Shown in pieces: positions 15,601 through 49,546 of a stretch of DNA of 64,000 nucleotides. The stretch's first letter is position 1. Each line of letters opens with the position of its first letter. Origin of the DNA: Lacipirellula parvula. GTDB lineage: Bacteria > Planctomycetota > Planctomycetia > Pirellulales > Lacipirellulaceae. The position numbers and the translations under genes were made by a program. Below the pieces are notes generated by a model that made no database searches, was not told the DNA's origin, and worked only from the letters and a program-made list of their open reading frames with translations. The stretch is taken from contig NZ_AP021861.1 of the NCBI RefSeq assembly GCF_009177095.1, positions 3,392,501 to 3,456,500 on the forward strand, read 5' to 3'.

Positions 15601-15623
15601 CCCCCGGGCAGAGCCCGGGGCTA
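15601..15623. repeat. Short palindrome, family B, containing the kinase stop codon
   Basis: A GC-only palindrome (CCCCGGGCAGAGCCCGGGG) ending in CTA. The CTA at 15621-15623 is, on the minus strand, the TAG stop of the Ser/Thr kinase gene. Other copies are at 21486, 30204, 30266, 36918, 36985, 46284 and 58868. Confidence 0.85.
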
Positions 15624-17045
15624 AGTGAAGATCGTCAGCCCCGCCGCGACGATCGCCACCAAAATCGCCGTCCCGAGCAGCATAAACAAGCCGAAGCTTA
15701 TCCCGGCTTGCTCCCACAGTTTCGCGGCAGCCGCTTCGTTGGCCTTCGGCCTGATGAAGTAGCTCATCGAATCGCTCATCGACACCGGCAATCCTGCCAG
15801 CGGCATCGCTGGCGCCGAACGGCTCGGCGTCTGCTCGCCGGTATCGATTTCTCCCGCCTCCACGGCGACGGTATCCGCCAGGTTGCCGGCGATGAACGAC
15901 TTCTCGCCAGGGTCGGCCGCGTACTGGCCGATCTGCCGCCAACTATTCTCATCGGCGGTCGAAGTCCAGCGCCGCAACCGGTCGACCACTTCGGCAACCG
16001 AGCCGATCCGCTCCTCAGGCCGCTTGTGCATCATCTGCGCGATGAGGTCGGCGAGTTGCGGATCGAGGTTCGGCGTGAATCGCAGCGGCGTGATCGGCGC
16101 TTCGTCGAGATGCCGCCGCAGCTTGTCGCGCGTCGCGCCGCCAGGGTAGGGGACCTTGCCGGTCACTGCGTAGTAAAGCGTGCAACCCAGCGAGTAGATG
16201 TCGCACGACCGCCGCACGTCGCCTGGATTGGTGATCGCTTCCGGAGCGATAAAGTCGGGCGTCCCCACGATATGCCGCGGACCGCCGTCGGCCGCCGGCG
16301 CCGCGTCGGACGAGAACGACGCCAGTCCCAGGTCGGTCAGCTTCGTCAGGCCCTCCGGCGTCACCAGCAGATTGCCTGGCTTCACGTCGCGGTGGACCAG
16401 CCCCTGTTCGTGAGCATGGGCAAGCGCTTCGGCCGCTTGCGAAATCGCCAGCGTTGCCTGCTTCTCGGAGAGCGCTCCATGCCGCCGCACGAGCCGCCGC
16501 AGATCGCTCCCCGGAATAAACTCAGAAACGAGGAAGTACGTTTCGCCTTCTTTATCCGCGTAAGAAAGTCGCACCAAGTTCGGATGGTCGAGCTGAGCCT
16601 GCGCACGAATCTCGCGGCAAAAGGCGTCGATCGACCGCGGATCCATCTGGCTCTTCGGCAGCACCTTGATCGCTTCGATCCGGCCCAGCAGAAAATGCTC
16701 GCCCTTGAAGACGTATCCCATGCCGCCGTGGCCGATCGCGTCGAGAATCCGGTATGGCCCGAGCGTGAACTTCGTTCGCCCGTGTCGCAGCTGCTCCGCC
16801 TGCCACGGGTTGAGATAGCCGAGTTTGATCAACTGCTCGCTGAGGACGTCGTCAGACAGGTTCTTGAGCGACTGAATCCCCGATCGCAGCGGATCGACCA
16901 TCTCGTGCCAGGCGCGGTCGATCTGCTCCTGCGTCAGCAATCCGCTGGCAAGGCCGGCCTGCTCGAGAATGGAATGATGCGAATGGGGCAAAACAGGTCC
17001 GGGCCGGGGAAGGCGGGCATACGCGACGCCCGCTTTTGCGCACAA
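15621..17045 (-). CDS. Membrane-anchored Ser/Thr protein kinase
   Basis: A 474-residue Hanks-type kinase. Residues 30-90 are the planctomycete N-terminal helical domain (SEQLIKLGYLNPWQAEQL). The kinase domain spans about 98-375: Gly-rich loop GHGGMG (105-110), ATP-binding K127, catalytic HRDVKPGN (D220, N225), DLG in place of DFG (D238), and APE (267-269). A single TM at the C-terminus (about 447-470) anchors it with the kinase in the cytoplasm and essentially no external sensor. The start is uncertain: the longest frame uses TTG at 17045, and the next TTG (residue 19) or ATG (residue 49) would cut into or before the N-terminal domain. The TAG stop lies in a family B repeat. Confidence 0.9.
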   Translation of the reverse strand: MCAKAGVAYARLPRPGPVLPHSHHSILEQAGLASGLLTQEQIDRAWHEMVDPLRSGIQSLKNLSDDVLSEQLIKLGYLNPWQAEQLRHGRTKFTLGPYRILDAIGHGGMGYVFKGEHFLLGRIEAIKVLPKSQMDPRSIDAFCREIRAQAQLDHPNLVRLSYADKEGETYFLVSEFIPGSDLRRLVRRHGALSEKQATLAISQAAEALAHAHEQGLVHRDVKPGNLLVTPEGLTKLTDLGLASFSSDAAPAADGGPRHIVGTPDFIAPEAITNPGDVRRSCDIYSLGCTLYYAVTGKVPYPGGATRDKLRRHLDEAPITPLRFTPNLDPQLADLIAQMMHKRPEERIGSVAEVVDRLRRWTSTADENSWRQIGQYAADPGEKSFIAGNLADTVAVEAGEIDTGEQTPSRSAPAMPLAGLPVSMSDSMSYFIRPKANEAAAAKLWEQAGISFGLFMLLGTAILVAIVAAGLTIFT

Positions 17046-17132
17046 CTAGACGCCGCCATAGTATAGCCTCTGCAAATACGCGGCCAGACAGGCCTGAAAA
17101 TGGGGCGTTAGCAAGCGTTCTGCGAGGCGTGC

Positions 17133-18176
17133 TTAACGCAATTCGCCCGCCGCAGTGGCCTGATGGCCCGGTACGTCGCCCATCAGCCGGCGGTAGCGCG
17201 ACGATTGCAGCACCGACAGCAACGCCCGAAAGCGGCGATCTTCCAGCAACTCCTCGGCGACGCACAAGTCGTATGCCTCGGTTCGCACCGGCAGGAACTC
17301 AAGCCGCGATTCGCACGCGACGACGCGCGGCGTCACGCCCGCATCGGCCCACCCCGACCGCACCGCTTCAGCGACGCCGCGATGATCGCTGGCGATGCGA
17401 CGAATCGATTGCTTTCCTTCGAGTAAATCGTCGAGACACTGCCGGGCGCCCGAACCGACTTCGCGGCCAACCCAACGGACCTTCGAGTTGACGAGCGCCG
17501 CCACATTCGGCCGCCGCCGTTCCGCGGTCGTCACGAGCCCCGCTTCCCACGTCGCCAAATGCACGAGCCGGTAGCCCGCACCGAGAACCGTCTCGACCGC
17601 CTGCTGATTGCCGCCGCTTGCATCGCTTCCCAGATGGACGCCGGCCAAATGAACCCGCCCCGCCTTGAGCAGTTCGAGGGCGTGCCGGCTGCTGCGAAAG
17701 TAACTCAGCAACCGCACGCCCGTCCGCAGGGCGAGTTCGTGGGCAAGGATCGAAACGGTCGGATCGCAGCAAGCGATGACAAGCGTCGGCGGCGCGGCCC
17801 GCAGTTCGTCGAGTTCCTCGGCTCCCTCGACGCCATCGTGCGGGAATGCAAACGGGATCGCCGCCTCGCTCGGGTAGCGAAACGTGCGGCCGCCAACCGC
17901 CGCCAGCCAATATCGCCCCGCCGGTTCGCCCCCATGCCACGCCCACTCGAGTGCGGCAGGCGCCGCGTCTTCGAGCTGAAACAGGTCCTCAACACGACAA
18001 TTCAGCGCCGCCGCCAACCGCAATGCGGCGACCGTGGAGGGTACCAGCCGGCCCGCCTCGATGGCGCTAATGTTCGTCCGTGGCAGCCCAGCGGCGTCGG
18101 CCAATTGCTGCTGCGACCACCCGCGGGCGGCCCGGAACTGCTGCAATCGGCGGATGAGCGACGGGCTGTTTGACAT
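17133..18176 (-). CDS. Transcriptional regulator: XRE-type HTH fused to a solute-binding domain
   Basis: A 347-residue protein. Residues 5-62 are a cro/C1-type HTH (LQQFRAARGWSQQQLADAAG, PRTNISAIEAGRLVPS). The rest is a periplasmic-binding-protein-like domain of the type seen in molybdate/tungstate-sensing regulators (COG1910-like), lacking a signal peptide, so it acts in the cytoplasm as a one-component sensor. The start at 18176 is chosen because the HTH begins there; the frame continues upstream with no homology-like features and would run into the opposite gene. It is divergent from the PEP-CTERM operon 100 bp away and could regulate it. The ligand is not deducible. Confidence 0.85.
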   Translation of the reverse strand: MSNSPSLIRRLQQFRAARGWSQQQLADAAGLPRTNISAIEAGRLVPSTVAALRLAAALNCRVEDLFQLEDAAPAALEWAWHGGEPAGRYWLAAVGGRTFRYPSEAAIPFAFPHDGVEGAEELDELRAAPPTLVIACCDPTVSILAHELALRTGVRLLSYFRSSRHALELLKAGRVHLAGVHLGSDASGGNQQAVETVLGAGYRLVHLATWEAGLVTTAERRRPNVAALVNSKVRWVGREVGSGARQCLDDLLEGKQSIRRIASDHRGVAEAVRSGWADAGVTPRVVACESRLEFLPVRTEAYDLCVAEELLEDRRFRALLSVLQSSRYRRLMGDVPGHQATAAGELR

Positions 18177-18276
18177 GATTCTGTCCCCATGATAGACACT
18201 ATCCTGCCAATTCCAATCGGGAACCCCGCGGCAACGTGTTGCGTGCTGCCGCTCCCCATTCTGAGATATTACTTCC

Positions 18277-19110
18277 ATGAAAAGCTTTCGCCTGTCATTT
18301 CGGCTCCTCCCAGCGGTTTTTGCTCTCCTCGGAGCAACTGCCCAACTCGGCGCCGCCGCCCAGGTGACGCTCGCACCGAGCAAGGACAACTCCCTCATTC
18401 AGGTCACTTCCGCCAGCGCGGCCCAACTCAGCAACGGTCTCGGCGATATTTTCGTCGGCCGCACCAACCAAGACGGCCAAGGCCCCGCCACGATCAGCAT
18501 GCGCCGCGGGCTGATGGCGTTCGACATCGCGGGCTCAGGCATTCCCGCCGGGGCGACGATCACTTCCGTCACGCTCACGATGCGCGACGTGATGGGCCTC
18601 AACGGCGACCGCAACGTCACGCTCCATCGCACCTCGGCCGATTGGGGCGAAGGAACCTCGTTCTTCAGCGGCGGCCAGGGTGGCCCCGCGACCACCGGCG
18701 ACTCCACCTGGTTCTACCGCTTTTACGACGCAACGACGCCCGCGGCGAGCACCCCCTGGGCCACCCCCGGCGGCGACTACGCACCGACCGCCAGCGGCGG
18801 ATCGATCGTTTCTGACGATCTTGGCGCTGGCCAGGTTTTCACCTGGTCGAGCGCGGCGAATCCGGCAATGATCGCCGATATTCAGTTCTGGCTCGCGAAC
18901 CCCGCCTCGAACTTCGGTTGGACCATCATCGGCGATGAATCGGCCGGCCAAACAGCGAAGCGGCTCAACAGCAGCGAATCAACGACCGCGCCGAACATGC
19001 CGCCTTCCTTGGTAATCGAATACACCGCCGTGCCGGAACCCTCGACGCTCGTGCTGCTCGCCTTCGCGTCGCTCGGAATCTGCGGGCGTCGCTTCCGCAT
19101 CTCCGCGTAA
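18277..19110 (+). CDS. DNRLRE-type secreted protein with PEP-CTERM sorting signal
   Basis: A 277-residue exported protein. A signal peptide covers about 1-28 (LLPAVFALLGATAQLGAAAQ). The body resembles the DNRLRE beta-sandwich domain (DIFVGRTNQDGQGPATISMR, RGLMAFDIAGSGIPAGATIT), often found in surface and carbohydrate-related proteins. The last 26 residues are a PEP-CTERM signal: VPEPST, a hydrophobic helix (LVLLAFASLGICG) and a basic tail RRFR, recognised by an exosortase. The stop overlaps the next start by one base (TAATG). A weak promoter-like TTGACA at 18170 overlaps the start of the divergent regulator. Confidence 0.85.
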   Translation: MKSFRLSFRLLPAVFALLGATAQLGAAAQVTLAPSKDNSLIQVTSASAAQLSNGLGDIFVGRTNQDGQGPATISMRRGLMAFDIAGSGIPAGATITSVTLTMRDVMGLNGDRNVTLHRTSADWGEGTSFFSGGQGGPATTGDSTWFYRFYDATTPAASTPWATPGGDYAPTASGGSIVSDDLGAGQVFTWSSAANPAMIADIQFWLANPASNFGWTIIGDESAGQTAKRLNSSESTTAPNMPPSLVIEYTAVPEPSTLVLLAFASLGICGRRFRISA

Positions 19111-20138: not shown

Positions 20139-20784
20139 AATAAGATTGAGCTACTCGGAGAACCGCAGCGTGCTTGCTTCCTGGACTGAAAACCGCAACC
20201 TCGCCGATCGCTCGCGCCTTGGCGGCTGGCAGCGTACGCTCGACGGCTACGCGGTGCGCGAAGTGGCGATCTTGCTCGTCCTTGGCCTGCTCGCCGCTGG
20301 GCTGACGGCGATCACGGCCAGCCCGATTCGCCTTCCCGGCCACGCGATTCTCCGCGGCACGCTGCCGATGATTCTGGGCCTCAGCCTCGTCCCCCGTCGC
20401 GGCGCCGGCACGGTCATGAGCGTCGGCGCCCTCCTCGGTTTCGCCCTCTCGCTACCGCTCGGCGGGGCACGACTACCGGTCGCGGCTGCGTGCGGGCTCG
20501 CGTTTCTCGGCCCCGCGCTCGACGTCGTCACCGCAAACGTCCGCGCGACTGGTTGGCAACTTTACCTGCGCTTCGCGGCGGCGGGCCTCGTGGCCAACCT
20601 CGCCTCGTTCGCCGTTCGCATGGCCGCGGGCGGCAGCGGCTCGGGCCGCGGTCCCGGCTCCGGCACCGGGATGGGCTGGCCCGTCGCTCTCGTCAGCTTC
20701 GCACTCTTCGGCATCGCCGCCGGCATCGTCTGCGGAGCGATCTGGTTTCGCACTAAACCTCGCACTGCCACGGACTCGCCATGA
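20131..20784 (+). CDS. Multi-pass membrane protein, possibly transporter S-component-like
   Basis: A 217-residue protein with about six hydrophobic segments starting at residue 45 (VAILLVLGLLAAGLTAI), separated by short basic loops, and a Gly/Ser-rich loop (SGSGRGPGSGTGMG) before the last two segments. The overall pattern (small, Ala/Gly/Leu-rich, about six helices) is similar to ECF-transporter S components or related membrane proteins, but I see no family signature and give this only as a possibility. The ATG at 20131 is chosen because the upstream frame overlaps DUF1559 coding sequence. Overlaps of eight and four bases with both neighbours indicate coupling with the TiaS-like gene. Confidence 0.65.
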   Translation: MTEIRLSYSENRSVLASWTENRNLADRSRLGGWQRTLDGYAVREVAILLVLGLLAAGLTAITASPIRLPGHAILRGTLPMILGLSLVPRRGAGTVMSVGALLGFALSLPLGGARLPVAAACGLAFLGPALDVVTANVRATGWQLYLRFAAAGLVANLASFAVRMAAGGSGSGRGPGSGTGMGWPVALVSFALFGIAAGIVCGAIWFRTKPRTATDSP

Positions 20785-21488
20785 TCTACGTCGGCATCGA
20801 CGACACCGACACCCGCGAGACGCCCGGCACGAACAAGCTCGCGATGTACCTGTCGGAGCTGCTGCGCGATCGTTTCGAAACGCGCTGGATCGTCCGCCAT
20901 CAGCTCCTCGAAGATCCACGCGTCCCGTGTACCAACCGCAACGGCTGCGTATCGCTGTTGTTCGAACCGCTCGGCAGCGACGGCGTTGCGGAGCTGACGA
21001 ACATCTTGCGCGATGAAATCGTCCGCTGGATTCCCGAGGGGAGCGATCCGGGCCTCTGCATCGTCACCGATGCACCTGAACGCCTCTCGGCCTGGGGACG
21101 CACGGCGCAGCAAGAACTTGTCACGCAAGCCGCCGCTTGGGAACTCGCCCGCACGATTGGCGTCCACCTCGAAGCCCTCGGCGGCACCGGCGACGGCGTC
21201 ATCGGCGCCCTCGCCGCCGTCGGACTGCTCGCCACCTGGAACAGCGGCCGCGTCATCCGCTGCTACCGCGTCCCGGCCGACGCATTTGATCTCACCGGCG
21301 AGTTCACCGTCGAGCAGCTGTACCAAATCGGCGTCGACGACATCTTCGCAGTCGAAGACGGCCGCCGCCTCGCCGCCGGAACCGTGAACCTCGGCAAGCG
21401 GCTCCGCCCCAACCTGCGTGACGGACGCATGGTCCTCTACGTCGCGGGCGAAGGCGACAATTACGAAGCCCAACGCGTCGTCGCGTAG
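20781..21488 (+). CDS. TiaS-like nucleotide-binding domain protein
   Basis: A 235-residue protein opening with YVGIDDTDTRETPGTN, the signature of the N-terminal (TCKD-like) domain of archaeal TiaS, the tRNA-Ile2 agmatinylcytidine synthetase. A second block, VPCTNRNGCVSLLFE, matches the conserved R-T-N-x-N-x motif. It lacks the zinc-ribbon and OB domains that TiaS needs for tRNA, and bacteria use TilS/lysidine for this tRNA modification, so it probably has another function. It overlaps the upstream membrane-protein gene by four bases. Its TAG stop (21486-21488) is the first three bases of a family B palindrome. Confidence 0.75.
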   Translation: MIYVGIDDTDTRETPGTNKLAMYLSELLRDRFETRWIVRHQLLEDPRVPCTNRNGCVSLLFEPLGSDGVAELTNILRDEIVRWIPEGSDPGLCIVTDAPERLSAWGRTAQQELVTQAAAWELARTIGVHLEALGGTGDGVIGALAAVGLLATWNSGRVIRCYRVPADAFDLTGEFTVEQLYQIGVDDIFAVEDGRRLAAGTVNLGKRLRPNLRDGRMVLYVAGEGDNYEAQRVVA

Positions 21489-21509
21489 CCCCGGGCTCCG
21501 CCCGGGGGT
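21486..21509. repeat. Short palindrome, family B, containing the stop of the TiaS-like gene
   Basis: The unit starts TAGCCCCGGGCTCCGCCCGG and runs on for a few bases. TAG is the stop codon of the gene that ends at 21488. Confidence 0.85.
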
Positions 21510-21549
21510 CGGCCACCATCCCGACGGGCGTCACCACGCGTGAAAAGCT

Positions 21550-21657
21550 CTGGCCCCCTCCCCCTGGAGGGGAGGGCTGGGGAGGGGGGATGAACGCTGG
21601 TACCCGCTCCTTTCACCCCTCCCTAACCCTCCCCCTCAAGGGGAGGGGACCTCAGGG
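21550..21657. repeat. Long hairpin repeat, family A, copy 2
   Basis: Same arms and GGTACCCGCTCC-type centre as the copy at 15411. It lies between the convergent TiaS-like and rluA-like genes and could form a strong RNA hairpin on both transcripts. Confidence 0.88.
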
Positions 21658-21746
21658 TTTTGTTTTCTCCAAGGCTTCCGCAGCTCGCAGATGAACGGAC
21701 GTTGGAGCAGGGGACCAAAACGCATCAACTGACCGCAAGCGTTTAG

Positions 21747-22451
21747 TTAGCTCGGCAGCGGCAACCGACTCACCCCGCCATGCCGCGACCACGACTTCGG
21801 CAACCGCGCCTTCAACTCCATCGGCTCGCGCCTTACCGGATGCTCAAACTCCGCACGATAGGAATGGAGTGCAATCCCCGGCGAAAAATCTTCGCTCCCG
21901 CCGTACTTACGATCGCCGACAATCGGGCAGCCAATCTTCGCGAGCTGCACGCGAATCTGATGCTTCCGTCCCGTGTCGAGCTCGATCTCCAGCAGCGACA
22001 ACCCGCCTGCGGAGCCGAGCAACCGGTAGCTCAGCCGCGCCTGCTGCGCCCCCTCAGCCCCCGCGTGCGTCACATGCACCTTTCGATGCCGTTCGTCCTT
22101 CCGCAGATAGTGCTCAAGCACGCCGGCGTCTTCCGGCGGCCGGCCCGCGACGACGGCCAGGTAAATCTTGCGCACCTGCCGCGTACGAAACGCCTCGCTC
22201 AACCGCGCCGCCGCCTTCGAGGTCCGCGCGAGCAGCACGAGCCCCGTCACCGGCGCATCGAGCCGGCTGACGATGCCCAGATAAACATTCCCCGGCTTGT
22301 CGTACTTCTCGGCTATGTACTCCTTCGCCACCGTGAGCAAACTCTCACGATCCTCAGCCACCCCCATCGTCGGCAACTCAGCCGCCTTGTTCACCGCCAG
22401 GAGGTGATTGTCCTCGTAGAGCACATCCAATCTATCGAAACGAGCGGGCAT
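21747..22451 (-). CDS. RluA-family rRNA/tRNA pseudouridine synthase
   Basis: A 234-residue enzyme of the RluA family that isomerises uridine to pseudouridine in rRNA or tRNA. Seen in the sequence: VLYEDNHLLAVNKAAELPT at the start of the fold, the catalytic motif as SRLDAPVTG with the nucleophile D65 (usually RLDRxTSG), RKIYLAVVAG, and RVQLAKIGCPIVGDRKYGG near the C-terminus, which bind the substrate RNA. No S4 domain is present, and the length is that of the short RluA/RluC-type members. The target nucleotide cannot be told from sequence alone. Confidence 0.9.
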   Translation of the reverse strand: MPARFDRLDVLYEDNHLLAVNKAAELPTMGVAEDRESLLTVAKEYIAEKYDKPGNVYLGIVSRLDAPVTGLVLLARTSKAAARLSEAFRTRQVRKIYLAVVAGRPPEDAGVLEHYLRKDERHRKVHVTHAGAEGAQQARLSYRLLGSAGGLSLLEIELDTGRKHQIRVQLAKIGCPIVGDRKYGGSEDFSPGIALHSYRAEFEHPVRREPMELKARLPKSWSRHGGVSRLPLPS

Positions 22452-22573
22452 GAATGGTCAGCGGAGTCAGCGGCAAATCGGGGGCGAATCGCTCCACGAT
22501 ACCACGAAACCCAAGTCGACCCCATCGGCGGCAGATCGCTCCGGCTGCAGATTCACCCACCTTTTCCATTTCT

Positions 22574-23303: not shown

Positions 23304-23329
23304 TCCCGCCGCATGTTCCAAATACTTCT

Positions 23330-23432
23330 GGCTCCCTCCCCCTTGAGGGGAGGGCTGGGGAGGGGGTGGAACGCTGGTACACGGCTTCAATCACCCCTCC
23401 CTAACCCTCCCCATCAAGGGGAGGGGACCTCA
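23330..23432. repeat. Long hairpin repeat, family A, copy 3
   Basis: Same structure as the copy at 15411; this one has CTGGTACACGGCTTC in the centre and lies 27 bp after the maf stop. Confidence 0.88.
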
Positions 23433-27540: not shown

Positions 27541-27569
27541 TAGCCCCCGGTTCTTCAAACCGGGGGCTA
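27541..27569. repeat. Short palindrome, family C
   Basis: CCCCCGGTTCTTCAAACCGG, flanked by TAG and GGGCTA, between tkt and the HlyIII gene. Other copies: 46941 (short), 46973 and 47199. Confidence 0.85.
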
Positions 27570-28427: not shown

Positions 28428-30194
28428 ATGCAACTCGCCTCTCTTCGTACCGTTGCCCTCTTGTCCGCGTGCGTGCTCGCGAGCCAAACGGCGAGCGCCG
28501 CCGGCATCCTCGACCAACTTCCAGCCGATGCGACCGGATTCGTGGCGATTCACGACCTGGCAGCGACGAGCGCCAAGATCGAACGCGTCACCGCGATCTT
28601 CAAGGAACTCACCCCCGGCCCGATCCCGCCGCCGCTGGCGATCGCGCAGGGAGTCACCGGCATCGGCCCCGGCCTCGACGAGTCGGGCGACGCGATCCTC
28701 GCCCTGATGCCGGGTGACGACGCCCCGCTGCCGCCGCGGCCGCTGTTGCTTCTGCCCGTGAGCGACTACGCCGCCTTCGCTGAATCGATCGGCGGCGACG
28801 CCACCGGCGAAGTCTGCCGCGTCACGCTCGCCGGCGAAGAGGTGCTGCTGGCCAAACGCGGCGATTTCGCGGCGATCATGAACGTCGAACACCGCGACGA
28901 TCTTGAGAAGATCCTCGCTGCCAGCCCGACGCCGATTGCCGAGTTGGCGCCCCTCGAAGCGTGGCTCGCGACGACCGACGTCTCGGCAGGCCTCACGCGC
29001 TCGGGCGTCGAGCGTCTGATCGCACTCAGCCGCCGCAGTACTTCCGATTTCCGCCAACAGATGGAAGCCAACTTCGCCGATCCCGCGCTCAGCGAGATGA
29101 TGAACGATATGCGGCGTAACATTGAACTCGCCGACAAAGCGCTGGAGTTCCTCGGCGCCGAAGTGAAAGCCGGCGCTGTGGGGCTGACCATCGACGAGGC
29201 GACCAACGTCCGTCTGGCCAAGCGAGTCATCTTTGCGGCGAAGGATGGCGAATCGAAAATCCCCACGGCCGAGCCGCTCAACAAGTCGCCGCTTAGCGGC
29301 TTAGCAACGGCGCCTTACGTGATCGGCGGCAGCGGCCCGATACCCACGGGTTACGGCGACCGCCTGGCCGCGCTCTCGCGACAGCTCCTCCAGAACCTCC
29401 CGCAAGGCCGCGGTTACACCGGCTTCGAAGAGGAGGATTGGCAGCAGCTCGAAAAGTCATACCGTCAAATGATGAAGGGGCTGAAGTCGATCGGGTTTGT
29501 CTTGTACGAAGGCCAGAAAACTGACGGCGTCTTCAGCAACTACTACTTCACGTATGAAGTGGAAGACTCGCAGGCCTACTTGAAGCAGTTTCGCGAATCG
29601 ATGGAAATCAACAACGAGTTGATGGCTAAGGCCGCCAACGACTTGCTCCTCGAATACGAGCTAAAGGACATCACGATCGCCGACAAGCCAGCGCTTGAGG
29701 CGGTGGCCGACGTCGTCGCGGCCGGCGCCGATCCGAACGTCGCCATGGTCGAACCGATGTTGAAGGCGATGTTCGGCGCCGACGGAAAGGTTCGCATGTA
29801 CGCCGTGGCCGTCGACGCCGACACGGTGCTCATGGCGGTCGCCCCGGAAGCCGCCGTCGCCAAAGCGGTGGAGGCTGCAGCCAGCGGCGCCAAGGGGCTC
29901 GCCGAGGATGCCTCGATTGGCGTCACGGCAAAGCTACTCGATCCGCAGGCGCCTTGGACGGCATTCGTGAATCCCGCCGGCGCCATCTCGTGGGGAAAGC
30001 GGTTCATCGCGGCCACCACGATGGCCTTCGGGGTCGGAGATGCGGAGCCCAAAACGCCCGCTTTCCCCGCCACCCCGCCGCTCGGGTTCTCCGTGAATTT
30101 CACCGAGAACCAACTGCAAAGCGAAGTGGTCGCGCCCGTCGGGTTCCTCGAAGCCGTGGCTACCTACGCGAAGACGCTCACGAAGGGCGAGTAA
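28428..30194 (+). CDS. Large secreted protein of unknown function
   Basis: A 588-residue protein with a signal peptide at 1-24 (LRTVALLSACVLASQTASAA). The remainder is rich in Ala, Glu, Asp and Leu with no membrane segment, suggesting a soluble periplasmic or surface protein. It begins with a duplicated-looking pattern (GFVAIHDLAATSAKIERVTAI; then FLALMPGDDAPLPPRPLLLLPV-like strands), as in planctomycete families that have no assigned function. No catalytic motif is evident. A family B repeat starts ten bases after the stop, and another, inverted, follows at 30266. I do not recognise the family. Confidence 0.7.
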   Translation: MQLASLRTVALLSACVLASQTASAAGILDQLPADATGFVAIHDLAATSAKIERVTAIFKELTPGPIPPPLAIAQGVTGIGPGLDESGDAILALMPGDDAPLPPRPLLLLPVSDYAAFAESIGGDATGEVCRVTLAGEEVLLAKRGDFAAIMNVEHRDDLEKILAASPTPIAELAPLEAWLATTDVSAGLTRSGVERLIALSRRSTSDFRQQMEANFADPALSEMMNDMRRNIELADKALEFLGAEVKAGAVGLTIDEATNVRLAKRVIFAAKDGESKIPTAEPLNKSPLSGLATAPYVIGGSGPIPTGYGDRLAALSRQLLQNLPQGRGYTGFEEEDWQQLEKSYRQMMKGLKSIGFVLYEGQKTDGVFSNYYFTYEVEDSQAYLKQFRESMEINNELMAKAANDLLLEYELKDITIADKPALEAVADVVAAGADPNVAMVEPMLKAMFGADGKVRMYAVAVDADTVLMAVAPEAAVAKAVEAAASGAKGLAEDASIGVTAKLLDPQAPWTAFVNPAGAISWGKRFIAATTMAFGVGDAEPKTPAFPATPPLGFSVNFTENQLQSEVVAPVGFLEAVATYAKTLTKGE

Positions 30195-30203
30195 CATGCT
30201 CTC

Positions 30204-30289
30204 TAGCCCCGGGCTCTGCCCGGGGGTCTCTCTCTATTCCGCGATGCGTGGCGGACCGCAAAGCTACCCCCGGGCGGAGCCCGGGGCTA
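30204..30289. repeat. Inverted pair of family B palindromes
   Basis: TAGCCCCGGGCTCTGCCCGG (30204 onward, to 30227) faces a second unit at 30266-30289 in inverted orientation; together they form a BIME-like structure between convergent genes. The last three bases (CTA, 30287-30289) are the TAG stop of the amidohydrolase on the minus strand. Confidence 0.85.
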
Positions 30290-31465
30290 AAAAACGATTG
30301 GCTGCTCGCTGCCGCCTAACAGCGGTGCGTAGGGATCGTGTTTCTCCGCACCGCAAGGCATAGCGATCAATCGTGCCGCCTTGCCGATCGCAATACTACC
30401 GAGCGAGCCCGCAAGCCCCAGCGCCGCGGCGCCGTCGAGCGTCGCCATCCGTAGCAGCGTCGCCGGCGCAACGCCCGGATGATGCGCAGCTGCGAAGCGA
30501 ACTTCACTGAGCAGATTCAAATCGGGATTCGACGCCCGGCTATCGGTACCAAACGCGACGCGAACTCCCGCGTCGAGCATTGCCACCAGCGGATAGGATT
30601 CATGCCCAAAGTAGGCGTGCGTCCGCGGGCAGTAGACGACGCTCATCCGCTCGCGTTGGTTTGCGGCGAACGCGATCTCCTCAGCGTCGAGGTAGTTGCC
30701 GTGGATCACGAGCGAACGTTCGGCGCGGCTTAGCTGCCGCATGTAATCGAGCACCCGCGAGTCGCGCGGAATGGCCGACGCATCCCACATGCTGCGGTCA
30801 GCCAGCAACTCCTGAAACGGGCCGGTTCCGTCGCGCAGCAGTTCCAGCTCTTCGCGCGATTCCGCTAAGTGCATCGCCATCGGCAGGCAGCGTTCCACGG
30901 CGAGGTCGACGAGCCGTTCGAGCAGCCGCGGGTGAACGGTGTAAGGGGCGTGCGGGCTGATCCCTGCCGCGGCGCCCGCAAGCTCGACGCGGCGCTCCAT
31001 CTCGGCGAAGACCGAATCGACTCGCCCCGCTGAAAATCCGATCGCTTCTTGAAAGAGCAGGAGCGAGCCGTCGTTGTTCGCCTCGTACAACGCTGCTAGC
31101 GACGTGGCGATCTCGCCGATGGCGCCGACGCCCGCGTTGCGAGATTCCTGAAGCCCAGCCGCAATCGCGGCCGCCGGATCGCGATCGCCGCGGCCGCGAT
31201 CTGCGATCACCGAGCGAATCCAGGCCGGCAAACTCATCCCCGTCAAGCCGAGCGGCTTCGTCAGCCCGCTAAATTCCAGATGGGTGTGAGCGTTCACCAG
31301 CGCCGGCAACAGCACAACGTCGCCGAGGTCGGTTACGGCGTCCGCTTCAGTCGCCCGCTGGCCAACTGCGGCAATGACGCCGTCACGCAGCGTAACGCAG
31401 CCTCCTTCGATTGGCGGCCCGTCGATCGGCAGCACCCAGCGAGCTCGTAGCGTCTGTTGCGTCAT
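30287..31465 (-). CDS. Amidohydrolase, probably aminodeoxyfutalosine deaminase
   Basis: A 392-residue metal-dependent amidohydrolase of the chlorohydrolase/adenosine-deaminase-like subgroup. Metal ligands are seen: NAHTHLEFSGL (H60, H62), ISPHAPYTVH, MHLAESREELELL and the Asp of FGTDSRASNPDLN. The motif spacing and LNxHxHLE type are those of family members assigned to deamination of aminodeoxyfutalosine (MqnX) in menaquinone synthesis. mqnA and mqnC lie 3.3-5.3 kb upstream on the same strand, which supports this reading, but an S-adenosylhomocysteine- or guanine-deaminase-like activity cannot be excluded. The TAG stop lies in a family B repeat. Confidence 0.75.
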   Translation of the reverse strand: MTQQTLRARWVLPIDGPPIEGGCVTLRDGVIAAVGQRATEADAVTDLGDVVLLPALVNAHTHLEFSGLTKPLGLTGMSLPAWIRSVIADRGRGDRDPAAAIAAGLQESRNAGVGAIGEIATSLAALYEANNDGSLLLFQEAIGFSAGRVDSVFAEMERRVELAGAAAGISPHAPYTVHPRLLERLVDLAVERCLPMAMHLAESREELELLRDGTGPFQELLADRSMWDASAIPRDSRVLDYMRQLSRAERSLVIHGNYLDAEEIAFAANQRERMSVVYCPRTHAYFGHESYPLVAMLDAGVRVAFGTDSRASNPDLNLLSEVRFAAAHHPGVAPATLLRMATLDGAAALGLAGSLGSIAIGKAARLIAMPCGAEKHDPYAPLLGGSEQPIVF

Positions 31466-43083: not shown

Positions 43084-44315
43084 TCAGCAATTTTCCAAAG
43101 ATGGCTATGGCTGCGGACGAACATCGAGTTGCCCGAGACCGCGGGCGACGCGAGGATCTCTTCAACCATATTAATTTCGGCGAGGATCTCGCCCTTCAAA
43201 TTTAGCACGAACGCATCGCCCTTGGCATTGAAGCAGTAGAGATGCTCGGGCCCCAGCAGCGGCGTGGCCCAGACGGAGCCTTTGAGCCGCGTCGTCCAGT
43301 CGATTTCCTCGGTCTTGAGGTCGAAGCAATTGAGCACGCCGCCGCGGTTGATCGCGTAGATCTTGCCGTCGCGAATGACGGGGCTCGCCGAGGTCGGTTT
43401 TAGTCGCTTCGCTTCCCAAACTGGTTCGGCGGGATCTTCCGTCGGGACGAGTTCCACTGCCGAAAGCCACTTGGCCGGCACATAGACGCGACCTTCGTAC
43501 GGCGTCGAAGAGGCGATCGTGTCGCACTCCATTTCAACGTTCCACACCGGTCGGCCGTCGGCCGGCTTAAGCAGCTGCACCCCCTTGGGCGTTTGGATGA
43601 TTACGCCGCGGGCGTCGGGTTCGTCGACAAAGTAGGGCGATGTCCAGCTCGATTGGTTCGGCCGATCCTCTTGCCAGCGGAGCTCGCCGGTGGCCGCGTC
43701 GTACGCCGCGACGAAGCCGGCCGTCTCGCCGTTGCACTGGAGGATCACCACGCCGTCGACGACGACGGGCGAGCTCGCCATGCCAAAGTCGTTGCCGAGT
43801 CCCTCGTGCGCGGCGGTGAGGTCCTTCTGCCACACATCTTTGCCGTCGAGATCGAGGACGAACATGTCGTTCGACGAGAAGAGCGTGTAGATCCGCTCGC
43901 CGTCGGTGGCCGGGGTATTCGCGGCAACGGCGGTCAGCTCGTTGATGACGACGTTTCCCTGAGCGGCGAACTCGCGGCGCCACAGCTCCTTACCCGTCCC
44001 GGCGTCGAATGCCAGCACGAAGAGCTCGCGTTCCTTCTCGCCAGCGGAGCAGGTGACAATGACGCGCCCCGCGACGACGATCGGGCTCGAGACGCCGCGC
44101 CCCGGCAGGTCGGCGGTCCACGCGATGTTTTTCGGCGGCCGGATCGACCAGTCGAGCGGCAACTTGGCGGCGGTTTGGTTCAACCCGCCGCCGCGGAACG
44201 AGGGCCAGTCGTCGGCTGTGAGTTCCGCAGTCGCGGGACGCACGGCGAGCAGCGCAAGCGTGAGCGTCAATCCGCCCAGGCGGAGCCGCTTCCCCAAATT
44301 CTCACGCGCCGACAT
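43080..44315 (-). CDS. Secreted PQQ-like beta-propeller protein
   Basis: A 411-residue protein. A signal peptide covers about 1-31 (RLGGLTLTLALLAVRPATAE). The remainder is a WD/PQQ-type propeller with recurring blades: TGKELWRREFAAQGN, DGKDVWQKDLTAAHEG, TGELRWQEDRPNQSS, DGRPVWNVEME, and others. Blades of this type occur in quinoprotein dehydrogenases and in non-enzymatic BamB-like scaffolds; dehydrogenase residues are not evident. The start at 44315 is chosen for the signal peptide; the open frame extends 1.5 kb upstream as antisense shadow of the oxidoreductase gene. It overlaps aroA by four bases and is divergent from the YdeP-type gene. Confidence 0.82.
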   Translation of the reverse strand: MSARENLGKRLRLGGLTLTLALLAVRPATAELTADDWPSFRGGGLNQTAAKLPLDWSIRPPKNIAWTADLPGRGVSSPIVVAGRVIVTCSAGEKERELFVLAFDAGTGKELWRREFAAQGNVVINELTAVAANTPATDGERIYTLFSSNDMFVLDLDGKDVWQKDLTAAHEGLGNDFGMASSPVVVDGVVILQCNGETAGFVAAYDAATGELRWQEDRPNQSSWTSPYFVDEPDARGVIIQTPKGVQLLKPADGRPVWNVEMECDTIASSTPYEGRVYVPAKWLSAVELVPTEDPAEPVWEAKRLKPTSASPVIRDGKIYAINRGGVLNCFDLKTEEIDWTTRLKGSVWATPLLGPEHLYCFNAKGDAFVLNLKGEILAEINMVEEILASPAVSGNSMFVRSHSHLWKIAE

Positions 44316-44600
44316 GTCCAAAAACAACGCCCCTCGGATGCTGCCCCAGCCTGTCGCAGCGATCGCGGTCAGCGTATGCTGAAGGCAGAGACTCACGGCT
44401 GAAATCTCGCTGGTTGCCCAACGACCGCCCCCGTGAGCATGGCAAACGGTATAGCCTATCTGCTCGACGAAGCCCGGACCAGCGGGCCCGAGCGGCGGCT
44501 TGCCGACGCTTATCTGTTGGCGATGAACGAGGGTCTGCGAATCAGCGGGAATCGCGCGATTCGCACGGCAATCCAACGAGTAGCACTCGGAAGCGGCGAG

Positions 44601-46892
44601 ATGAGAAAAGTCAAAACCGGCGGCGGTTGGCCAGCGCTTCTCTATACCTTCCGGAAGGGTCGCGAAGCGGGCGGCATCTGGCAGCTCTGGAAGGCGATGC
44701 GCACCAAGAACGCCTGTAAGACCTGTGCACTCGGCATGGGTGGGCAGCGCGGCGGCATGGTCAACGAGGCGGGCCACTTCCCGGAGGTCTGCAAAAAATC
44801 GCTCCAGGCGATGGTCGCCGACATGCAGGGGGCGATCACGCCCGACTTCTGGGCCAAGTACGGCCCCGACGAACTTCGCGGCCTTTCGCCGCGCGAACTG
44901 GAGAACTGCGGCCGGCTCACCCAGCCGGTGCTTTACACGCCCGCACTGAAACGCTTCCAGCCGATCTCCTGGGAAGATGCGTTCCACCGGATCGTCGGCA
45001 AGCTCCGCGAGTTGACGCCCGATGAAACCTTTTGGTACTTCAGCGGCCGCAGCAGCAACGAGGCGGGCTTCCTGCTGCAGATGTTCGCGCGGCTGTATGG
45101 GACGAACAACGTCAACAACTGCAGCTTCTATTGCCACCAGGCGAGCGGCGTCGGCCTCACCAGCGTCACCGGCAGCGGCACGGCGACCGTCACGCTCGAC
45201 GACGTTGAGAAGTCGGACATGGTGTTCGTCATCGGCGGCAACCCGGCGAGCAACCATCCGCGGATCATGCGTTCGCTGATGACCTTGCGACGGCGCGGCG
45301 GCGAGGTCATCGTCATCAACCCGATCGTCGAGACGGGCCTCGTCAACTTCAGCGTGCCAAGCGACGTGCGGAGCATGCTGTTCGGCACGAAGATCGCCAG
45401 CCTCTACGTGCAGCCCCACATCGGCGGCGATCTCGCGCTGCTCACCGGCATCTCGAAGCAGATCGTCGAGATGGGAGCGCATGACCTGCCGTTCCTCGAG
45501 AGCTCCTGCAACAACTGGGACGAACTGCGCGACTGGCTGGCGAGCGTCACCTGGGAAGAGATCATCGCCAAGAGCGGCGTGCCGCGCGAGGAGATCAACG
45601 AGATCGCCGAGCGGTATGCGAAGTCTAAAAACGCCGTCTTCAGCTGGACGATGGGAATCACGCATCATGTTCATGGCGTCGAGAACGTCCAAGCGATCGG
45701 CAACCTCGCGCTGCTGAGGGGGATGGTCGGCAAGCCAAACGCGGGGTTGATGCCGATCCGCGGGCATTCGAACGTGCAGGGCATCGGTTCGGTCGGCGTC
45801 ACGCCGAAGCTGAAGGATGTGCTGTTCGATCGGCTGCAGTCGCACTTCGGCGTCAAGTTGCCGACGACCGAGGGGCGCGACACGATGGCCTGCATGAACG
45901 GCGCCGACAACGGCGAGCTGAAGTTCGGCCTCTGCCTAGGCGGCAATCTGTACGGCTCGAATCCCGACTCGACCTACGCTCAGCAGGCGATTGAGAAGCT
46001 CGACATGCTCGTCTACATGAGCACGACGTTGAACACGGGACATGCGTTTGGCCTCGCGAAAGAGACGCTCATCTTGCCGGTGCTCGCGCGCGACGAAGAG
46101 CCGCAGGCGACGACGCAGGAGTCGATGTTTAATTTTGTGCGGTTGAGCGATGGCGGGCCCGCGCGGCATGCGGGGCCGAAGAGCGAAGTCGAAGTGATCG
46201 CGTCGATTGCTAGCGGCGTTGCGGATGGGCGGCGCGCGGCGGGGGCGAACGGCAGCAACGGCGCTCACTCCAATGGCGACGCGCCCCCCGGGCAGAGCCC
46301 GGGGCTAGGGGATCCGACAGGGCTGACGGCGGTGAACTGGCAGTCGATGCAGGATACTGGGCGGATTCGCGATGCGATTGCGGCGATCGTGCCGGGCTTT
46401 GAGCAGATTGCGGAGATCGATAAGAACAAACAAGAGTTCCAGGTCGGCGGGCGGACCTTTCATCAGGCGAGCTTCCCGACGTACAACGGCCGCGCGAACC
46501 TCCACACGCATCGTTTGCCGGAGATTCAAGGGCAGGGCGAGCGCGAACTGCGGCTGATGACCATCCGCAGCGAAGGCCAGTTCAACACGGTCGTTTACGA
46601 AGACTATGACCTGTACCGCGGCGTTGAACGTCGCGACGTGATTCTCATCCACCCCGACGATATCCGTCGGCTCGGCGTTCATCAGGGGATGACCGTCGCG
46701 GTGCATGGCCCTGCCGGCACGCTGCGCAACGTGCGGTTGCATCCGTTCGAAGAAATTCGACCGGGCAACGCGGCGATGTACTATCCCGAGGCGAACGTGC
46801 TGGTGAGCCGGCACCTCGATCCGTCGAGCAAGACGCCGGCGTTTAAGTGCGTGATTGTGCGGCTGGAAGTTGAAGGGTTGGCGCTGGCTTAG
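44601..46892 (+). CDS. FdhF/YdeP-family molybdopterin oxidoreductase
   Basis: A 763-residue molybdopterin enzyme. Start chosen at 44601 because MRKVKTGGGWPALLYTFRKG is the family's usual beginning; the frame continues to a GTG at 44433. Residues 39 and 42 are CKTC, then ALGMGGQRGGMVNE, GRSSNEAGFLLQMFARLYGTNN, CSFYCHQASGVGLTSVTGSG, and MGITHHVHGVENVQ, all YdeP-like. Unlike formate dehydrogenases, family members lack the catalytic Sec/Cys loop in its usual form and their electron donors are unknown; E. coli YdeP is linked to acid resistance. Oddity: residues about 562-569 (PPGQSPGL) are encoded by a family B repeat read in frame, in a low-complexity loop. Confidence 0.85.
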   Translation: MRKVKTGGGWPALLYTFRKGREAGGIWQLWKAMRTKNACKTCALGMGGQRGGMVNEAGHFPEVCKKSLQAMVADMQGAITPDFWAKYGPDELRGLSPRELENCGRLTQPVLYTPALKRFQPISWEDAFHRIVGKLRELTPDETFWYFSGRSSNEAGFLLQMFARLYGTNNVNNCSFYCHQASGVGLTSVTGSGTATVTLDDVEKSDMVFVIGGNPASNHPRIMRSLMTLRRRGGEVIVINPIVETGLVNFSVPSDVRSMLFGTKIASLYVQPHIGGDLALLTGISKQIVEMGAHDLPFLESSCNNWDELRDWLASVTWEEIIAKSGVPREEINEIAERYAKSKNAVFSWTMGITHHVHGVENVQAIGNLALLRGMVGKPNAGLMPIRGHSNVQGIGSVGVTPKLKDVLFDRLQSHFGVKLPTTEGRDTMACMNGADNGELKFGLCLGGNLYGSNPDSTYAQQAIEKLDMLVYMSTTLNTGHAFGLAKETLILPVLARDEEPQATTQESMFNFVRLSDGGPARHAGPKSEVEVIASIASGVADGRRAAGANGSNGAHSNGDAPPGQSPGLGDPTGLTAVNWQSMQDTGRIRDAIAAIVPGFEQIAEIDKNKQEFQVGGRTFHQASFPTYNGRANLHTHRLPEIQGQGERELRLMTIRSEGQFNTVVYEDYDLYRGVERRDVILIHPDDIRRLGVHQGMTVAVHGPAGTLRNVRLHPFEEIRPGNAAMYYPEANVLVSRHLDPSSKTPAFKCVIVRLEVEGLALA
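46284..46307. repeat. Family B palindrome read in frame within a coding sequence
   Basis: The unit (CCCCCCGGGCAGAGCCCGGG, then GCTA) lies inside the YdeP-type gene and is translated as PPGQSPGL without stop, since CTA is read as Leu on this strand. Flanks encode Gly/Asn/Ser-rich sequence, likely a surface loop. Confidence 0.8.
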
Positions 46893-46940
46893 GTTGGGCA
46901 TTCCCGACCGACAGCGGTGCGCTCGGGCCATGTCGATCGA

Positions 46941-46998
46941 GCCGCCGGTTTGAAGAACCGGGCACTTGCTACCCCCCGGTTTGAAGAACCGGGGGCTA
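46941..46998. repeat. Tandem family C palindromes at the end of the decayed HTH gene
   Basis: A shortened unit (CCGGTTTGAAGAACCGGG) at about 46944-46961 is followed by a full one (46973-46998) ending GGGGGCTA. The CTA (46996-46998) gives the TAG stop of the HTH gene on the minus strand. Confidence 0.82.
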
Positions 46999-47877
46999 AG
47001 CGGCGCGGCGGCGGTTTTGTTGTCGCTTTTGTTGTCGCGTCGCTTGTGTCGCTTTCTTCGTTTTACGCGACATTAAGTGGTCGTACTTGTCGCGGTCTTT
47101 TTGGCGCTGTTCGTTTTGCATCAGACGGACGCCCCAGTCGAGGAGGTCTTGGTGGCGTTGGGCGCGCTCTGCTTCGGTGAGCGCGGGCGGCGCGTTGTGC
47201 CCCCGGTTTGAAGAACCGGGGGCTAAGGTTGGCTCCGGGGGCGGGGTGACCTCGGCGTTGGGTGCTTGACGCGGAGCGTGGGAACGAGGGGGCTCAGGCT
47301 TCGCGGCGAAGGACCATTCGTCGGGGGTGCCGATGCCGTAGTTGTGGATCACGGGCGCGGACTTGGCGCGCTCGCGGAAGACTAGCGGCGTGTCGGCCAT
47401 CTTTGGCTCGCGCGGGCGGTTCAGGGGCCGAGGCTGGGGAAGCAGCAGTCGAGGCGTGTTCGTAGGTTTTGTCGAGATGCTTGAAGAGCTCGCTACGCGC
47501 TCCTCCGGCGTGTTGCGAGCGCGGTTTCCATCATCAGCCGTAAGGCCTTTGTGACTTTGAGGCCCGAGGCGAGGTCGCCGCGCTTGCGGGCGTAGGTTTC
47601 GGGTTTGGTCCGCTCGAGCAGCCACGCCGCGGCGCCAGTGCGTTCTCGCGGCTGATTCCATCAGTTTTAATGGGTCGGGCTTGGCGAGCTTGGCCATGCG
47701 AACTTCTTGGTCAAAATCTTCTTCCTCACGGCGGTAGCGCTGCACCGTGCGGAGCGTCACGCCGACTCCTTGAGCGGCCTCGGCGAGCGAGTAGCTCTCT
47801 CGCACCAGTCGGCAGAATTTTACCTTCATTTCTTCGGTGAAGACCCGCTCGCGTTGGCGGATGTATTGACGTTGCAT
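46996..47877 (-). pseudogene. HTH protein gene, probably frame-disrupted
   Basis: The open frame of 293 residues begins as a clear HTH protein (RQRERVFTEEMKVKFCRLVR, SLAEAAQGVGVTLRTVQRYR), then becomes unnatural from about 47630. The next frame continues smoothly there (AAAWLLERTKPETYARKRGD, like small-terminase or HTH proteins) until a stop near 47515, and a third frame then reads ELFKHLDKTYEHA; the original frame makes sense again from about 47410 (PKMADTPLVFRERAKSAPVI). At least three frame changes are thus implied. A family C repeat is read in frame near the C-terminus (LAPGSSNRG). The start is ATG at 47877. Its TAG stop is in a repeat. Sequencing error cannot be excluded. Confidence 0.6.
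47199..47225. repeat. Family C palindrome read in frame within the HTH gene
   Basis: CCCCCGGTTTGAAGAACCGG, followed by GGGCTA, is translated on the minus strand as LAPGSSNRG, flanked by Pro-rich sequence. Confidence 0.8.
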
Positions 47878-48277
47878 GGGAAGGTTCTCCTCTGTGTGAA
47901 CGTGTGACTGAAGTTGTTGAATCGTTTGGTTTGGTTGGTGAGTAGGTGTTTAGGTGAGTAAGTGAAGAAGCGCGCTTGGCGCGGCGTGATCGAGTGATGG
48001 CGAGCCCCCCGGCTTGTCCGGGGAATTCAGGGGTGGCGCGAATTGGGGGTCGCTCCGGCGGGGGCGTTGCCCCGCGGCTACCGCGTTGGGGCGAGTTTGT
48101 TGGTGGGGCGGAGTTGGGGAGAGCGGCAAACCCTACGGGTTATGTCGAAGATAGCGGCCGATTTTGCCGATAGTCTTCGGCAACGCGAGCTTGGCTCGCA
48201 TGGCTGACGGCGCTTGCTAGCGACTGCTCGGCCTTCCGGAGGTGGTTTTGGGGCGGACTTTTCTCCAGGAACTTATC
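47878..48277. other. Intergenic region before the porin gene, with repeat fragments
   Basis: 400 bp with no gene. It holds a GT-rich stretch (47920-47970), a CCCCCGGCTTGTCCGGGG palindrome (48006-48023), and a family D palindrome (48051-48087, GGCGGGGGCGTTGCCCCGCG). The porin's promoter should be in the last 150 bp, but no convincing match is seen. Confidence 0.55.
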
Positions 48278-49402
48278 ATGGCCAGGTTTTCGCGGTGGTC
48301 GTTGGGCTTGTTGCTAGCGTCGGCGGCGGGGAGTGCGGCGGCCGCTGCGGACGCGCCGGCAACTGTCGAGCAGGGGTTCGTCGACCCAGCTTCGTATGGC
48401 GCCACTTACCAGGCGACGGCGCTCGCGGGCCAACTGCAGAAACCGGCGGCCGAGTGCTACAACCGGCTCGAATTCAGTGCGGCGCTCCTGTACCTGCAGC
48501 CGATCGCCGACAACTTGGAGTACGGCACGCAGGTGACGCCGTTGCCGGCGCCTTCGCCGCACTGGGTGAATCAAGGGGTCGATCCTGGCCTCAGCCCGGC
48601 GTTCAACGTGGGTTTGCGATACATCGTGCCGGAGAACGGCAACGACGTGCGGCTCTCGTGGACGCACCTAAACGCTGACGGGAATGATTCGTTCACCGCC
48701 GACGCCCAGCAGTTCGCCGGCCCGCCCTACGAGATTGGCCCCGACTCCAATCTGTACAACGTTGCTCAAGGGAATGTTGAGTTCGAATACGATTCGGTCA
48801 ACCTCGAAGTGGGGCACTTGCTGACGGACAACAGCCCCGCCCAAGTCCGCGTCTTCGGCGGGTTGCAGTACGCGCGGATCAGCGAAGAACTGACCGGCAG
48901 TTTCGCCAGCTTCGACGGGAGTTACTTATCCACCAACACGAACTCGTCGCTATTTAACGGCGTCGGTCCGCGACTCGGCATGGAGGCGGGCGTCGTGAAG
49001 GGGCGGTTTGATCTCTTGGGACAGATCGCCGGCTCGGCGCTCGTTGGTCGGCAAGAGAACCAGCTCGACTTCGCCGCGATCTCGCCCGACCTGCCGGGCT
49101 TGGGGATCACGCCGCCGAATCGCCAATCGATCTCGTCGCCCGATGCGACGCGGGTGGTGCCGGCGATCGATTCGAAGCTGGGCGCGGGGCTGACGATTCC
49201 GATGCAAGGCGGCAGCATTCTGCGAATCGAGGCAGGATACCAGGCCGCGGTCTACATCAACGCGATCAGCCAGTACGCGATCAGCGACGTCGTCGTGCCG
49301 CCGAACGTGCAAGGGATCGGCGTCTTCTTGGAATCGGCTTATCACCTGCATAATAACTTTGCGGTGCATGGGCCGTATGCTTCGGCGAGTTGGGCTTATT
49401 AG
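48278..49402 (+). CDS. Lpg1974-type outer membrane pore protein
   Basis: A 374-residue outer membrane beta-barrel protein of the Lpg1974/Legionella major-OMP-like family. The ATG at 48278 gives a signal peptide (about 1-27, RWSLGLLLASAAGSAAAAAD); an ATG-like start at 48242 would add 12 residues. Family blocks: FSAALLYLQPIADNLEYGTQ, PAFNVGLRYIVPENGNDVRL, VEFEYDSVNLEVGHLLTDNS, VGPRLGMEAGVVKGRFDLLG and GAGLTIPMQGGSILRIEAGY. The protein ends with aromatic Y after ASASWAY, a C-terminal signal for the BAM complex. It should form a pore; planctomycetes code many paralogues. A terminator hairpin follows. Confidence 0.82.
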   Translation: MARFSRWSLGLLLASAAGSAAAAADAPATVEQGFVDPASYGATYQATALAGQLQKPAAECYNRLEFSAALLYLQPIADNLEYGTQVTPLPAPSPHWVNQGVDPGLSPAFNVGLRYIVPENGNDVRLSWTHLNADGNDSFTADAQQFAGPPYEIGPDSNLYNVAQGNVEFEYDSVNLEVGHLLTDNSPAQVRVFGGLQYARISEELTGSFASFDGSYLSTNTNSSLFNGVGPRLGMEAGVVKGRFDLLGQIAGSALVGRQENQLDFAAISPDLPGLGITPPNRQSISSPDATRVVPAIDSKLGAGLTIPMQGGSILRIEAGYQAAVYINAISQYAISDVVVPPNVQGIGVFLESAYHLHNNFAVHGPYASASWAY

Positions 49403-49436
49403 GCCCGGTTGGGGCGAAACGCGTTTACGCGGGGCT

Positions 49437-49462
49437 GGACTGGTCGCTTAAGCGACCAGTCC
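49437..49462. repeat. 26-bp perfect palindrome
   Basis: GGACTGGTCGCTTAAGCGAC followed by CAGTCC, a perfect inverted repeat centred on CTTAAG, 34 bp after the porin stop and just before the terminator. It may be part of the transcript end or another dispersed unit. Confidence 0.7.
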
Positions 49463-49482
49463 GAGGTGGGGAGGATAATGGC

Positions 49483-49516
49483 AAACGCTCGCGAATGATC
49501 GCGAGCGTTTTTTGTT
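49483..49516 (+). terminator. Rho-independent terminator of the porin gene
   Basis: An 11-bp perfect stem AAACGCTCGCG/CGCGAGCGTTT with a 6-base loop (AATGAT), followed by TTTGTT. The flanking A3/T6 suggest use mostly by the plus strand. Confidence 0.82.
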
Positions 49517-49518
49517 GC

Positions 49519-49546
49519 GCTCCGGCGGGTCGTTGACCCGCGGCTA
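49519..49546. repeat. Family D palindrome with the SecA stop codon
   Basis: TCCGGCGGGTCGTTGACCCG followed by CGGCTA. The CTA at 49544-49546 is the TAG stop of the SecA paralogue. Other copies: 48051 (variant) and 53394. Confidence 0.82.

Follow-up and report, generated by a model that had tools for sequence, protein, structure and literature searches.

REP-like palindromes of Lacipirellula parvula coincide with gene stop codons through their TAG-led ends

A 64,000-nucleotide stretch of Lacipirellula parvula DNA (hereafter the window; bases 3392501-3456500 of a single-contig, 6.92-Mb genome; 63% GC) contains five genes whose TAG stop codons are the terminal triplets of short palindromic repeats from three families, B, C and D. 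Such TAG-led palindrome ends fall on gene stops far above chance. The overlap is a real property of repeats that resemble repetitive extragenic palindromic (REP) sequences; it is known in kind, and the comparisons presented here add modest new detail on its origin.

Overlap of palindrome ends with stop codons

The original prediction placed five TAG stops of the window within palindromes, and all five are indeed found there. Each TAG is the 5′ end of a palindrome on the gene's own strand, and the reading order along each of the genes is gene, TAGCC, hairpin. A family B palindrome on the minus strand (15598-15623) begins with the stop (TAG 15623-15621) of a Ser/Thr kinase gene (15621-17045), and another on the plus strand (21486-21511) begins with that of a TiaS-like gene (20781-21488; TAG 21486-21488). 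The third case is an inverted pair of family B palindromes, an 86-bp unit resembling a REPIN (a REP doublet forming a hairpin) that sits between convergent genes at 30204-30289. Its right end is the TAG stop (30287-30289) of an amidohydrolase gene (30287-31465), and its left TAG starts 12 nt away from where the TAA of the gene at 28428-30194 begins. The last two palindromes are on the minus strand. One, of family C (46972-46998), has the stop of a helix-turn-helix (HTH) gene as its TAG (46996-46998); the other, of family D (49520-49546), has that of a SecA paralogue (gene 49544-51508, TAG 49544-49546).

Four of these genes are solid calls with coding scores of 94-252, and the HTH gene (46996-47400 or longer) is a weak one with a score of 23. 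Neither the HTH protein nor the TiaS-like protein has a Pfam match at E 0.001. Folding of the palindromes relative to shuffled sequences is uneven, with z-scores of -1.9 at the kinase gene, -1.7 at the TiaS-like gene, -3.1 at the HTH gene and -4.9 at the SecA paralogue. The whole family B pair at the amidohydrolase gene folds at -73.1 kcal/mol (z -10.9).

The frequency of such overlaps was evaluated in a sample consisting of the window and 99 stretches of 20 kb at even spacing (a hundredth overlapped the window and was left out), 2.044 Mb in all, or 30% of the genome. A dicodon gene caller identified 1450 genes covering 78% of this sample, with TAG as the stop of 576, TAA of 472 and TGA of 402. 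TAG is the most frequent stop here (576/1450), whereas TGA is so in the sample of Lacipirellula limnantheis (126/318 called genes). A TAG triplet followed by a hairpin with an arm of at least 7 occurs 366 times, and 233 of these TAG-hairpins could be sorted into ten groups (A, A2 and B-I). Only these enter the counts; the other 133 include 7 stops. Distances between palindrome ends and stops were measured from the first base of the stop.

Eighteen of the 233 palindrome ends are the stop of a gene, and these belong to families B (8/75), C (2/35) and D (8/49). For the three families together, 18 of 159 ends are the stop of the gene faced, or about one in nine. When each end was slid by up to 30, 60 or 200 nt, in 2000 trials each, the mean number of overlaps was 0.88, 0.67 and 0.27, respectively, with a maximum of 6. 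Families A and A2, taken as an internal control, have no stop among their 26 ends, a difference that is suggestive at most (Fisher p 0.08 against 18/159 for B, C and D). The remaining ends are found mainly outside genes: 100 follow a same-strand stop by no more than 150 nt, 103 are farther away and only 12 are within genes (4 on the same strand and 8 on the opposite strand). The closest end past a same-strand stop is 4 nt from it. Per position, the 217 ends of groups A-G occur at a rate of 0.0125 on stops and of 0.00125 in the stretch 4-60 nt past them.

The window itself is enriched, with 5 of the 18 cases although it makes up 3% of the sample, as would be expected if the pattern were a coincidence arising from a repeat-rich stretch. 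This explanation is scarcely credible, being refuted by the sample outside the window, where 13 of 146 B, C and D ends are stops against 0.44 expected by sliding, and by the same picture at loci from other genomes. The latter come from 80 loci retrieved by the family D pattern, which constitute a non-random sample; among the matches listed, 21 of 108 distinct D ends are stops, 5 of 20 in L. limnantheis and 16 of 88 in other genomes. L. limnantheis I41 (NZ_CP036339.1; G003), a member of the same genus, served as the comparison relative throughout and is the closest relative compared by the SecA paralogue (95% identity). Its sampled stretches, 450 kb in total, contain 8 TAGCC hairpins, one of which is a stop, too few to stand alone. 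The pattern first read from the window thus exceeds shifted-position chance in the sampled 30% of the genome and recurs in congeners.

Organization of the palindrome families

The palindromes are REP/REPIN-like: they are repeated, mainly extragenic and often arranged as inverted pairs with the TAGs at the outer ends. The end TAGCC is common to families B, C and D, in agreement with the original prediction. The core is preceded by TAG in 70 of 72 cases for B, 22 of 23 for C and 46 of 57 for D, and the base before this TAG is largely family-specific in this genome, with A and D mainly GTAG, B mainly CTAG and C mainly TTAG. Same-family neighbors less than 300 bp apart are inverted with TAG outermost in 10/10 cases for A, 22/22 for B and 7/7 for D. 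Family C shows the same arrangement in 10 of 11 cases, seven of them 85-222 bp apart and three of them single perfect palindromes. The pairs span 84-91 bp in B, 145-163 bp in A and 150-188 bp in D.

Among 29 genomes, the exact B and D patterns are almost restricted to one genus. The B pattern has 259 copies here, 36 in L. limnantheis, 35 in G004, 3 in G002 and 1 in G018; its reversed control gives 0 copies in this genome. For the D pattern there are 133 copies here, 115 in G002, 58 in G004, 40 in L. limnantheis, 3 in G001 and 1 in G009.

Family A palindromes with GTAG leaders stand in inverted orientation on either side of one Y1-transposase gene (PF01797, 149 aa). This gene, at L001 1489-1938 (G000:C1 near 2347180), has the appearance of a REP-transposase-like unit. 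An A-D core is absent from the 1.5 kb around each of the other three Y1 matches, and no Y1 or REP-associated tyrosine transposase (RAYT) gene adjoining families B, C or D was found.

The palindromes could also be regarded as DDE-type miniature inverted-repeat transposable elements with a TA target duplication. The unit would then be TA/GCC...GGC/TA, and the stop would consist of the target TA and the G of the element. Both outer ends of the pairs do conform to TAG...CTA, reading CTAG, TTAA or GTAC with the preceding base outside, and TAA is the stop at one of the loci (L042) in L. limnantheis and in G002. However, many copies are unpaired (26 of 75 in B and 34 of 49 in D), and the B spacers seem poorly conserved by eye. 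The sole long B pair inspected (1.29 kb, L232) has no evident transposase, though no search aimed at DDE transposases was made. We consider this origin improbable. As a candidate autonomous element, the L232 pair was rejected: its content is a heptosyltransferase-like open reading frame (ORF), as read by eye with no family search.

Alternatively, the hairpins could be ordinary terminators of transcription that start at the stop by coincidence, and GC-rich stems at or shortly after gene ends are what this would produce. A terminator scan of positions 44000-52000 returned 9 sites versus 9.9 in shuffled sequences, none of them being the HTH or SecA stop palindrome. Neither of these two, the stop palindromes tested, has the GC stem and T tract of an intrinsic terminator. 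Because the palindromes exist in hundreds of near-identical copies, pair in inverted orientation and are nearly restricted to one genus, they are better described as repeats, and the terminator explanation is very improbable.

Several other repeats were noted in the window. A perfect family C palindrome at 27541-27569 (TAGCCCCCGG...CCGGGGGCTA) begins at a distance of 36 nt, counted from a stop's first base, and does not overlap that stop. A family D palindrome on the minus strand (53394-53420) lies out of frame within a same-strand ORF, near its 3′ end; it is the sole B, C or D end less than 100 nt from an ORF end and yet out of frame. The weakly called HTH ORF holds a second family C palindrome (47199-47225), the TAG of which is likewise out of frame. 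A repeat of another kind, about 91-116 nt long with CCCTCCCCCTTGAGGGGAGGG-like blocks, is present in six copies (15401-15491, 21543-21633, 23320-23410, 55800-55890, 57264-57354 and 60411-60501).

C-termini in relatives and routes to the overlap

The original prediction raised two alternatives, that the repeats insert at stop codons or that they bring a stop with them and redefine the C-terminus. General redefinition is not borne out. The L. limnantheis orthologues terminate at the identical codon position in 10 of 13 cases (9 of 12 and the kinase, compared by hand), about the rate of ordinary TAG-stop genes (27/32). The stop at these 10 genes is TAG in 7, TGA in 2 and TAA in 1. In the three exceptions, the L. 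limnantheis protein is one codon longer (L026), two codons longer (amidohydrolase) or three codons shorter (L099b). The other stop genes among the 18 are outside these counts: the TiaS-like gene has no L. limnantheis match, L056 has no match listed, L066 has a weak match only, L095 was removed by the score filter, and the HTH gene was left out. The HTH proteins of the two species both seemingly end in RRRAA, with no BLAST alignment spanning the gene. The TiaS-like protein is about one residue longer than the three orthologues found, which share 46-52% identity with it and have TAA, TAA and TGA as stops.

The SecA paralogue offers the broadest comparison. At 19 of 23 orthologue loci the last residue is the same glycine as in the window gene, with TAG in 8, TAA in 6 and TGA in 5, and inspection of the bases revealed no TAGCC palindrome at the stop of these 19. 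Of the other four, one ends a residue later and three have a different last residue. The kinase of L. limnantheis also has TAG at the same codon and lacks the palindrome. The same TAG without a palindrome, an observation that the original prediction had named as one that would count against it, is seen in 8 of 23 SecA loci and in the L. limnantheis kinase, and fits repeats that sit at an existing stop better than repeats that bring one. In these comparisons, the C-termini are mostly unchanged.

At three loci, L. limnantheis has a related palindrome and a separate native stop. At L102, the native stop is TGA and the TAG of the palindrome is 21 nt farther on; at L099b, the native stop is TAG and that of the palindrome is 19 nt farther on; and at L010a, a TAG directly precedes a D core led by GGAG. 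This arrangement argues that takeover happens too, and most simply the palindrome's TAG would have taken over as the stop at each of the three loci. Five of six D ends past a stop in L. limnantheis, among the matches listed, lie only 3-7 nt from it, which is a small step, as takeover would need. At two D loci of L. limnantheis (L276 and L303), the palindrome's TAG comes directly after the TAG stop of the gene (TAGTAGCCGC), a state that is possibly the step before takeover.

Taken together, we favor, with a probability of roughly two in three, an explanation in which small mobile REP/REPIN-like families with TAG-led ends come to overlap stops by two routes. The end that these families carry begins with TAG (with TAGCC for B, C and D), and inverted pairs with both TAGs on the outside are frequent. 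Copies would build up between genes, in many cases shortly after a 3′ end, where harm is least. By the first route, palindromes would sit on NTAG words, an amber stop being one such word. By the second, loss of a native stop would let a palindrome a few bases farther on take over. Selection on protein ends would favor outcomes with the C-terminus unchanged, so that recognition of the repeat by the ribosome would not be required. The insertion chemistry, the selection and any effect on the RNA of a hairpin right after the stop are what we infer in this account. If palindromes simply sit on the NTAG word of their family, the share at stops should be about what the availability of that word predicts, and the shares are 4/57 for B and CTAG (availability 8.5%), 2/31 for C and TTAG (5.6%) and 5/39 for D and GTAG (9.9%).

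Another reading is insertion specific to amber stops or NTAG words, with a transposase recognizing NTAG in single-stranded DNA and the TAG belonging to the host. It would explain why palindrome ends in this genome concentrate precisely on the stop, with none at 1-3 nt and two at 4-7 nt. It would also explain why the L. limnantheis orthologues of the kinase, L041, L045, L076, L099a and L010b share the codon position of the TAG but lack an intact palindrome there, and why the base before TAG deviates more at stops (for B, it is C in 4/8 cases versus 53/63 elsewhere). However, the right ends of pairs bear the mirrored CTA too, which makes the TAG look like the repeat's own part. Takeover at the three loci speaks against it as well, as does the presence of TAA or TGA at the site in some relatives. 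Among the matches listed from other genomes, the trend in the preceding base is reversed, with G before TAG at 17/21 D stops versus 14/29 ends past stops and 28/46 distant ones, and ends do fall 3-7 nt from stops. Specific insertion is unlikely, although it retains some weight.

Several observations weigh against the two-route explanation. The only close pair in group H is in direct orientation. When all NTAG words are considered, family D stands above availability (8/46, p 0.02), whereas B and C do not. The match with availability also masks a gradient, since the share of TAGs occupied by an end is 3.1% for stops, 14.8% at 4-60 nt past them, 3.3% at 61-150 nt and 1.6% in other non-coding DNA; occupancy of NTAG is thus not uniform. 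Among the matches listed from other genomes, D stops follow an xAG codon in 14 of 21 cases, versus 18% for ordinary TAG-stop genes (in this genome, 2/8 versus 15%), and the excess suggests that the D leader or target may reach the last codon. TAG at the same codon in L. limnantheis (7/10) is not clearly more frequent than in ordinary TAG-stop genes (14/27). Absence of the palindrome may also represent loss in some cases, because the L. limnantheis orthologues of L041 and L045 (L214 and L202) have no intact palindrome and yet show, by eye, seemingly eroded D-like and B-like halves within about 110 nt past their stops. At loci other than the three with a separate native stop, the L. limnantheis orthologues have no intact palindrome at the stop.

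Finally, joined-flank searches yielded no alignable intergenic empty site that would show the TAG to predate insertion. In these searches, the joined flanks of the 140 repeat units with sufficient flanks were compared with the sampled DNA and that of the relatives. Mostly self matches were returned, and a stricter run left two candidates, both of which were rejected. One is only a partial self match, and in the other, L099a versus L. limnantheis, the aligned part after the hairpin resembles a B spacer.

Relation to known repeats and significance

The termini of GTAG-tagged REPs often supply a TAG stop to flanking ORFs, and Planctomycetes are listed among the phyla with tagged REPs (Di Nocera, De Gregorio and Rocco 2013, PMC3733652). 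The link between such repeats and translation stops, which the original prediction took to be unreported, was therefore already described in 2013. Like GTAG REPs, the palindromes described here are short, are mostly intergenic near gene 3′ ends and form many opposed pairs. The resemblance is less clear for the unpaired, TAG-containing tag at one end: most ends of A and D have G before TAG, but B has mainly CTAG and C mainly TTAG. The stop-overlap count and the orthologue test given here were not found in the available part of that article.

REPINs are inverted REP doublets with a less conserved spacer that form one hairpin and are mainly extragenic (Bertels and Rainey 2011, PMC3116915). The present pairs resemble them in doublet orientation, spacer conservation and extragenic location, but their spans in B and D differ from the 71 bp of the first Pseudomonas fluorescens group, and no Y1/RAYT gene was found next to B, C or D. 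Class 3 Y1 transposases occur mainly in Planctomycetes, Acidobacteria and Proteobacteria and have flanking atypical hairpins that can be high-copy (PMC6006769). Their tag is CnGA, as opposed to NTAG here.

Escherichia coli REPs located less than 16 nt from a stop codon were reportedly studied by Liang et al. in 2015. Such REPs are reported to downregulate translation (reference 17 of PMC12306157). The palindromes of L. parvula similarly place a stable hairpin directly after the stop codon, but here the TAG is the repeat's own end. Counts of stop overlaps for planctomycete REPs were not found in the literature searched, as far as its text was available, nor were control-backed counts, an orthologue test or takeover loci found in the accessible portions of PMC3733652, PMC12306157, PMC3116915 and PMC6006769.

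With these results, what was a one-line remark in the REP literature gains, for a planctomycete genus, controlled counts and comparisons among orthologues. Their value is in showing that proteins are mostly unaffected by these repeats at their stops. We also suggest, tentatively and as a rather doubtful extension, that movement may be guided by NTAG words, with amber stops acting as safe landing sites where the protein remains unchanged and the hairpin comes to lie exactly at the stop. The repeat would then occupy a niche at little cost and the gene would acquire a new 3′ end; were insertion guided by TAG, such repeats would have a natural safe harbor in stop codons.

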